A DNA stretch of 64,000 nucleotides from assembly GCA_949317995.1 (NCBI GenBank), contig OX439038.1:34866613-34930612 (forward strand), read 5' to 3'. Of this stretch, positions 49,600 to 50,790 are shown in pieces (positions within the stretch are counted from its first letter, which is position 1; the number at the start of each line of letters is the position of its first letter). The notes under the pieces were generated by a model. That model was not told the origin of the DNA, did not search any database, and saw nothing but the letters and a program-made list of their open reading frames with translations. The position numbers and the translations under genes are program-made. The DNA is from Acholoe squamosa (lineage: Eukaryota; Annelida; Polychaeta; Phyllodocida; Polynoidae).

Positions 49600-50790
49600 T
49601 CATATATGGTGAAATGAATATTCATAACGTTCCAGAGTTTTCCTGAGCCTAATTCTAAGACGCATAAAGCCATATATGGTGAAATGAATATTCATAACGT
49701 TCCAGAGTTTTCCTGAGCCTAATTCTAAGACGTAGAAAGCCAAATATGGAAATGTTAGAATAAAATATTCATGACGTCATAGAATTTTCCTCAGAGCTCA
49801 ATATTAAGACGCATAAAGCCATATATGGTGAAATGAATATTCATAACGTTCCAGAGTTTTCCTGAGCCTAATTCTAAGACGTAGAAAGCCATATATGGGA
49901 ATGCTAGCATAAGATATTCATGACGTCATGGAATTTTCCCTAGAGCTCAATGTTAAGAGGCATAAAGCCATATATGGTGAAATGAATATTCATAACGTTC
50001 CAGAGTTTTCCTGAGCCTAATTCTAAGACGTAGAAAGCCAAATATGGAAATTTTAGAATAAAATATTAATGACGTCATGGAATTTTCCTCAGAGCTCAAT
50101 GTTAAGACGCATAAAGCCATATATGGTGAAATGAATATTCATAACGTTCCAGAGTTTTCCTGAGCCTAATTCTAAGACGTAGAAAGCCAAATATGGGAAT
50201 GTTAGAATAAGATATTCATGACGTCATGGAATTTTCCTCAGAGCTCAATGTTAAGACGGATGAAGCCATATATGGTGAAATGAATATTCATAACGTTCCA
50301 GAGTTTTCCTGAGCCTAATTCTAAGACGTAGAAAGCCATATATGGGAATGCTAGCATAAGATATTCATGACGTCATGGAATTTTCCCTAGAGCTCAATGT
50401 TAAGAGGCATAAAGCCATATATGGTGAAATGAATATTCATAACGTTCCAGAGTTTTCCTGAGCCTAAATCTAAGACGTAGAAAGCCATATATGGAAATTT
50501 TAGAATAAAATATTCATGACGTCATGGAATTTTCCTCAGAGCTTAATTCTAAGACGCATAAAGCCATATATGGTGAAATGAATATTCATAACGTTCCAGA
50601 GTTTTCCTGAGCCTAATTCTAAGACGTAGAAAGCCAAATATGGGAATGCTAGCATAAGATATTCATGACGTCATGGAATTTTCCTCATAGCTCAATGTTA
50701 AGACGGATAAAGCCATATATGGTGAAATGAAAATTCATAACGTTGCAGAGTTTTGATGAGTCTAAATCTAAGACGTAGAAAGCCAAACAT
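49600..50790. promoter_or_regulatory. Enhancer-like tandem array: CArG + CRE + kappaB, 149-bp unit x7
   Basis: The unit is a dimer of two related halves of about 75 bp. Half A has CCATATATGG (CArG box), an ACGTT core and GAGTTTTCC. Half B has CC(A/T)(A)ATATGG, a perfect TGACGTCA and GGAATTTTCC. TGACGTCA occurs at 49772, 49921, 50070, 50219, 50368, 50517 and 50666, exactly 149 bp apart; each is followed one base later by the kappaB-type site (six perfect, the first degenerate). About 15 CArG boxes are present. No coding potential. The combination of SRF, CREB/ATF and Rel sites is that of inducible, immediate-early-type enhancers. The target gene could be the glycoprotein upstream or the ORF at 53012. 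Confidence 0.8.

Follow-up and report, generated by a model that had tools for sequence, protein, structure and literature searches.

The right end of a Polinton in a 64,000-nucleotide stretch of Acholoe squamosa DNA (hereafter the window) carries tandem arrays rich in words resembling host transcription factor sites, and we read this part of the element, with a probability of about one half, as an hr-like enhancer/promoter region that turns over fast and would use host-type sites. Its anatomy and position are described here, together with a motif content above chance, the recurrence of a promoter module in several lineages and purifying selection on the ORF that is the likely client.

The Polinton occupies 37,466 bp (19691..57156) between terminal inverted repeats (TIRs), which were located by inverted-repeat BLAST and by reading the termini (AGTAGTATAATAG...CTATTATACTACT). 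It is flanked by a 6-bp target-site duplication, GTCGTC, read directly at 19685..19690 on the left and 57157-57162 on the right. Encoded on the reverse strand are an rve integrase core (30627..31160; Pfam PF00665, 2e-10), an adenovirus-type cysteine protease (25539..26078; PF00770, 3e-7 for the whole protein, with no one stretch below the cut-off), a Death-domain protein that is possibly a host-signalling adaptor (22468..23085; PF00531, 8e-16) and the C-terminal open part of a family B DNA polymerase (32672..34921), the frame of which is broken upstream in the window copy; Pfam also identified a dUTPase and DUF5662. The interrupted polymerase ORF itself gave no Pfam match and a PDB sequence search with the polymerase was empty, and the polymerase was recognized via its relatives: a protein search returned 5714, most of the top 20 being 1000-1250 aa long, with named proteins from Gigantopelta, Mytilus and Dendronephthya at 44-45% identity and PF03175 on three of the 14 closest (P0002, P0014, P0015). 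TIRs, a 6-bp duplication, a family B polymerase, an rve integrase and an adenain-like protease are features shared with Polintons and adintoviruses, and the original prediction was right to place an array inside such an element; what sets the element apart from them is the length of its non-coding right end and the several tandem arrays there. Candidate ORFs for a double jelly-roll capsid, penton and packaging ATPase had no Pfam match, and viral contigs yielded no relatives by polymerase alone, by a 16-row alignment or by the exact CRE-kappaB word. The genome holds 2358 candidate polymerase copies; the best 60 of these are 98-100% identical, many with 1172-aa open frames. Directly to the left of the Polinton lies a Gypsy-like retrotransposon (RT, RNase H, integrase) with 172-bp LTRs at 14749-14920 and 19513-19684, and the end of the right LTR appears to be the point at which the Polinton, with its target duplication GTCGTC, inserted.

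Genes of the element run leftward from 46.1 to 20.2 kb, and two run rightward, a glycoprotein gene and an orphan ORF. The former (47729..49548, forward strand) is a spliced membrane glycoprotein gene with a signal-peptide exon, one or more Ser/Thr-rich exons and a transmembrane (TM) exon, its exon ends and splicing being predicted from ORFs. Three tandem arrays follow, of which the third (54814..55867, forward strand; Tandem Repeats Finder) is GACATG-rich with 98/119-bp units and lies downstream of the orphan ORF, ahead of the right TIR. Rfam found nothing at gathering thresholds in 46000-57300, and a tRNA scan was empty.

The first, distal array (49594..50790, forward strand) is made of 149-bp units, and Tandem Repeats Finder reported it as one array (49656-50787, period 149, 7.6 copies, 93% matches). 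Each unit is a dimer of diverged halves, A and B, of ~70 and 79 bp. Half B contains a CArG box, TGACGTCA and GGAATTTTCC, the last two of which we take, from consensus strings as for all transcription factor names used here, to be a CRE and a kappaB site; half A contains a CArG box and degenerate versions of the two other sites (TAACGTTC, AGAGTTTTCC), so that CRE and kappaB occur in the second half only, and AAGACGYA words are present as well. The arrangement reported from the letters alone was exact: seven CREs stand at 149-bp steps (49772 + 149n) and nowhere else in the window, kappaB begins one base past the CRE in six of the seven (the first copy reads AGAATTTTCC), and CCW6GG occurs 15 times, i.e. 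two per unit plus one. The edges of the array decay, like those of other tandem repeats, and at the right edge there is a degenerate terminal B-like unit (50784..50880, forward strand; by eye) without intact CRE, kappaB or CArG.

The sites exceeded chance expectation. When consensus strings were scanned, 200 dinucleotide shuffles of the array gave expectations of 0.01 for CRE, 0.07 for CArG and 0.13 for kappaB, against 7, 15 and 6 observed. Because the units are copies of one another, a single unit makes a fairer test; here, none of 4000 shuffles attained the unit's summed motif score, taken over 62 consensus strings that in part overlap or duplicate one another. The 37,466-bp element has 13 GGRRNNYYCC sites in all, six in the distal array and seven in the promoter-proximal array described below; its coding sequence (25.9 kb) and its remaining non-coding sequence (5.7 kb) have none, with expectations of 1.9 and 0.4, respectively. 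Genome-wide (1.48 Gb) there are 295 instances of the composite TGACGTCATGGAATTTTCC and 0 of the reversed pattern.

A genome search with the array, for which the best 40 of 81 candidates were grouped into 40 places including the window, provided near copies, and 20 of the other 39 places were fetched. These loci belong with the window to subfamily S2 and were chosen by their array, so that the presence of the array in them is no result. The unique stretch beside it (51000-52300) was found in 20/20 at 97-99.5% identity, and the array therefore belongs to the element rather than being a loose host satellite. A glycoprotein exon was present in 19/20 (it is missing from L023, where the junction is with a different part of the element), and the ORF, whole or in part, in 19/20 (L017 is without it in the fetched stretch). 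Among 169 units, those of the window included, the CRE was intact in 157, CArG A in 168, CArG B in 167 and kappaB in 138. After seven units with an indel or low match had been left out, sites held four of 24 shared-variant columns against 6.1 expected (P = 0.21), a result that gives no backing to the supposed protection of sites within the family; half B alone gave P = 0.078, and shared and private variants did not differ (Fisher P = 0.53). Inspected post hoc, the four site variants comprised two of CpG type, one A-to-T swap in CArG that keeps the consensus and one that breaks kappaB.

The promoter-proximal array, which is absent from the original prediction, lies at ~52430..52960 (forward strand) and is composed of AACTGCGCAATA + ATGGAAWTTTCCAT modules with GGGTGTGGC and CTCCTCCC boxes, including seven kappaB-consensus sites. 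A TATA box, TTTATATATAG (52975..52985, forward strand), is positioned 26 bp ahead of the ATG of the 244-aa orphan ORF (53012..53746, forward strand), which is marked as the likely client gene by dN/dS between its counterparts in other lineages. The ratio was 0.14-0.19 in the six comparisons, of eight, in which it was defined, the two with subfamily S3 being saturated, with dS of 0.17 within subfamily S1 and 0.41-0.66 between subfamilies; the ORF looks like a real gene under purifying selection. A protein search found no homologue of it, and a single-sequence fold (mean pLDDT 33) was useless.

The content of the promoter-proximal array, TGCGCAATA (C/EBP-like) plus GGAAWTTTCC, recurs in several lineages with differing spacers, and in S1 without kappaB. 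As for the TATA box, 17 among the 19 fetched array loci having both flanks contain TATATATAG. Within the 1 kb preceding the ORF, kappaB came no more than 35 nt after CTRYGCAR in 35/46 instances in S2 (five loci), 7/7 in L038, 7/9 in L039/L041, 8/8 in L052, 2/6 in L040/L051 and 0/38 in S1, and both the spacers and the unit lengths of these pairs differ among lineages. Across six groups, which are few and related, the promoter kappaB columns have a modest advantage in agreement over all others (P = 0.013) and over near columns (P = 0.063). By eye, three features could be recognized in L034, L039, L040, L041, L051 and L052, namely a box of ATTGG type, one reading CTCCTCCC or CTCCACCC, and a TATA-like stretch rich in A/T; GTGGCT replaces ATTGG in the window and L038, and S3 (L031) is without the CTCCTCCC box. 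Judged by such motif patterns, a putative kappaB-type input is better supported at the promoter-proximal array than in the distal array.

Further lineages were reached by two routes. Of two polymerase places without a listed array match, L030 was homologous to the right end and L029 was not; with no window match >60 bp, L029 was dropped as a second sister locus. It is a different virus-like insertion (G000:C18:36281000-36290999), whose gene cluster at 2908-7801 encodes a helicase of the papilloma/polyoma type along with BIR and Death-domain proteins; it also has a 96-bp array and lies 12-22 kb from a 98% polymerase copy. A search for the orphan ORF with the L030 version as query covered the best 150 of 313 candidates, and the following figures are not subfamily sizes: S1 has at least 53 full-length matches at 99-100% and S3 at least 20 at 51-52%, while S2 (the window and the fetched array loci) is among many at ~71-86%. 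At least 31 of the S1 copies have a common top score and at least 22 more stand at 99-100%, a very recent Polinton subfamily burst. Twelve diverged loci picked by ORF were fetched with 4.3 kb upstream, and a further two with 3.5 kb. In a midpoint-rooted tree of 15 ORF rows, S3 fell outside, followed by L039/L041, then S1 (L030, L034), L040 and S2; seven of the tree's 12 inner forks are weak, and it is drawn without L037, L042, L032, L033, L051 and L052.

The arrays of these lineages differ at the same position. Units of 149 bp were present in four of the 12 diverged loci (L035, L036, L037, L042), with TGATGTCATGG in place of TGACGTCATGG in three of the four L035 units that have that word; L038 is of the S2 branch, yet has no 149-bp array in the fetched stretch. 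The order in L030 is that of the window (TM exon, array, spacer, promoter array, ORF), and in S1 (L030, L034) the unit of the array measures 34/35 or 69 bp and contains AAGACGYA and CCATATATGG, these two short words being the only ones common to the S1 and window arrays. Four CArG boxes are intact in L034 and two in L030 (three others there read CCATATATAA). Neither copy read has a CRE or a kappaB consensus at the distal position, the single GGGATTTCC upstream in L034 being outside the strict kappaB consensus; S1 spread, so on the evidence of these two copies neither site is needed for spread. L039 has a 92-bp unit with TTACGTCA in six, TTACGTCATGGAATCTTTT in five and CCAAACATGG in five; kappaB is broken in its main units, and its left-edge unit retains a kappaB match, GGAACTTTCC, and a CArG, CCAAATATGG. 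L040 and L051 carry a different type of unit, 52/105 bp long, and none of these arrays was found in the fetched stretches of L031-L033 (S3), L038, L041 and L052, with other repeats in L033, L038 and L052. The CRE + CArG + kappaB trio was seen in the distal array of S2 only, and it is not a fixed old code. AAGACGYA, which to our knowledge matches no known CMV-type site, persists in the S1, S2 and L039 arrays and is as persistent as CArG.

Pairwise BLAST of the window's 4.5-kb region against eight relatives aligned the distal array to L039 only (70-87%), the promoter-array modules to L039, L041 and L052 (72-93%) and the 21 bp before the ATG to L030, L034 and L052, and neither window array to L030, L034, L040, L051 or L031 (five of the eight). 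The interval between the arrays (50805-52486) was unalignable save for one 31-bp match in L034; it should be present in six of the eight relatives, because the TM exon, which also has a counterpart in L030, matches there (L041 has no TM-exon match). Between S2 and L039 units, 62 of 78 aligned columns are identical, comprising 29/36 in sites against 33/42 in spacers, and the specific sites therefore do not stand out (CRE 7/8, CArG 8/10, AAGACGYA 7/8 and kappaB, the worst, 7/10). The expectation that sites would be kept while spacers drift thus failed in this comparison. The whole unit, chosen as alignable, may be more alike than suggested by a dS of 0.66 (L036 versus L041, the close kin of L039), which implies ~56% identity (Jukes-Cantor by hand).

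That sites and spacers are no different would be expected if the arrays were neutral and satellite-like, with slippage and recombination spreading and homogenizing them while unused sites hitchhike. Arrays of 3 to 16 units with a strict 149-bp period and degenerate ends, and the amplification of different units in different lineages, would also fit. Against this stand the re-formation of arrays at two positions common to S1, S2 and L039, with words reused although the 1.6 kb between them is practically unalignable, the motif content above chance and the recurrence of the C/EBP-like + kappaB pair in several different units. Of the alternatives, neutral amplification deserves the most credit, and we consider it doubtful.

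According to the regulatory reading that we prefer, tandem arrays at the right end of the Polinton would be quickly re-amplified and replaced. The orphan ORF would be driven by the promoter-proximal array, in which the C/EBP-like TGCGCAATA and the kappaB palindrome precede the CTCCTCCC box and TATA. Lying 2.2 kb upstream, the 149-bp array would act as a distal enhancer of this ORF and perhaps also of the glycoprotein gene. Host bZIP, Rel and SRF-type factors would read the sites, the promoter array providing Rel and C/EBP-type input and the distal array SRF and ATF/CREB input with, in S2, extra Rel input. Array length would tune strength, and re-amplifying another unit would rewire the element. 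From the motifs we infer that host Rel, CREB/ATF, C/EBP and SRF bind array sites and that transcription rises.

The label of a cytomegalovirus-like enhancer is a special case of this reading, in which the array would respond to signals through SRF, CREB and NF-kappaB jointly and would have converged on the CMV major immediate-early enhancer. It stood in part: sites are above chance, they lie in a Polinton, and the host genome has Rel-homology exons on C1 and C6 and SRF-type (MADS) exons on C5 and C1; but the distal sites are no better kept than spacers and the S1 copies read are without CRE and kappaB. All three site types occur in each B unit, with kappaB intact in six of seven. The human CMV (HCMV) enhancer is likewise described as having repeats with CREs, kappaB and SRF-type sites, namely 18/19/21-bp repeats, five CREs, kappaB sites and, in the distal enhancer, SRF sites (PMC7690695), and the murine CMV enhancer as having NF-kappaB, AP1 and CREB/ATF sites and using innate factors (PMC4391941). 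However, the CMV repeats are of 18-21 bp rather than 149 bp, whereas the Polinton has a CArG in every half-unit, and no common origin is expected. With the trio limited to one subfamily, kappaB broken in the main L039 units and the nearest downstream TATA-driven ORF 2.2 kb off, joint action of the three factors appears unlikely.

Comparable odds attach to an hr-type element read mainly by a viral protein (a transactivator, replication or packaging factor), for which AAGACGYA and TRCGCAR would be the sites and the host look-alikes incidental. The persistence of AAGACGYA would suit such a reader, as would the excess of AACGTC words, counted on both strands, that the non-coding right end has apart from its arrays (46308-51348; 10 seen against 1.15 expected from shuffles). 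Protein priming at the TIRs is the mode of replication generally ascribed to Polintons, so that an internal origin would be needless, and we rank that variant low. Baculovirus hrs offer the model: putative origins and early-gene enhancers that bind IE-1 and have CREs that could bind host bZIP factors (PMC3230853). Ranked lower still, and very improbable, is a 3' end element of the glycoprotein gene with repeated poly(A) signals: the first intact CArG is 121 bp past the glycoprotein stop in the window and 105 bp in L030, and 81/169 units have AATAAA, but the other 88 do not, and the palindromic CRE, CArG and kappaB words would go unexplained.

For the preferred host-read enhancer/promoter region, baculovirus hrs and promoters of the shrimp virus WSSV would be nearer precedents than CMV, by analogy of arrangement. 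The hrs, too, are repeat arrays with CREs, in an animal DNA virus, and have the enhancer function that is putative for the Polinton arrays; in the Polinton, no long IE1-type palindrome was noticed, and the arrays flank particular genes at one end of the element. WSSV is an invertebrate DNA virus with kappaB sites in promoters, which are induced by shrimp Dorsal, and it has a Tube-like viral activator of the pathway (PMC3171479, in part). Its response was measured, that of the Polinton is predicted, and the part of the source cited does not describe its promoter sites as such tandem arrays. In the open-licence literature, judged by title or abstract start, no paper was found on such arrays in Polintons or on how animal Polintons are switched on; planarian Polintons are listed among actively repressed transposons (PMC10558129).

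The presence of a Death-domain protein in the Polinton makes a WSSV-like loop thinkable. Its FADD match in PDB is weak (E 0.0018), and a protein search gave no homologue. The Polinton might ride host innate immunity, with the Death-domain protein pushing Toll/NF-kappaB and the C/EBP-like + kappaB promoter arrays (in one subfamily, the CRE/CArG/kappaB enhancer) reading the result, a proposal that we regard as a long shot. If it were true, stress, infection or the first active copy could awaken dormant copies, and tandem arrays would allow a subfamily to exchange its input signal for another through re-amplification of a different word, a change that S1 may have undergone. With one host, a large young family and subfamily arrays differing at the same position, the relation of switch input to element spread is testable within one genome.

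Two other repeats were noted within the element. A tandem duplication at 39680-41967 (spacing 1433 bp) contains two identical 300-nt stretches and two ORFs with common first ~235 residues. At 47150-47600, an 84-bp inverted repeat (94%) surrounds a tRNA-like piece (seen by eye; ARAGORN made no call) and is perhaps a SINE or hairpin.
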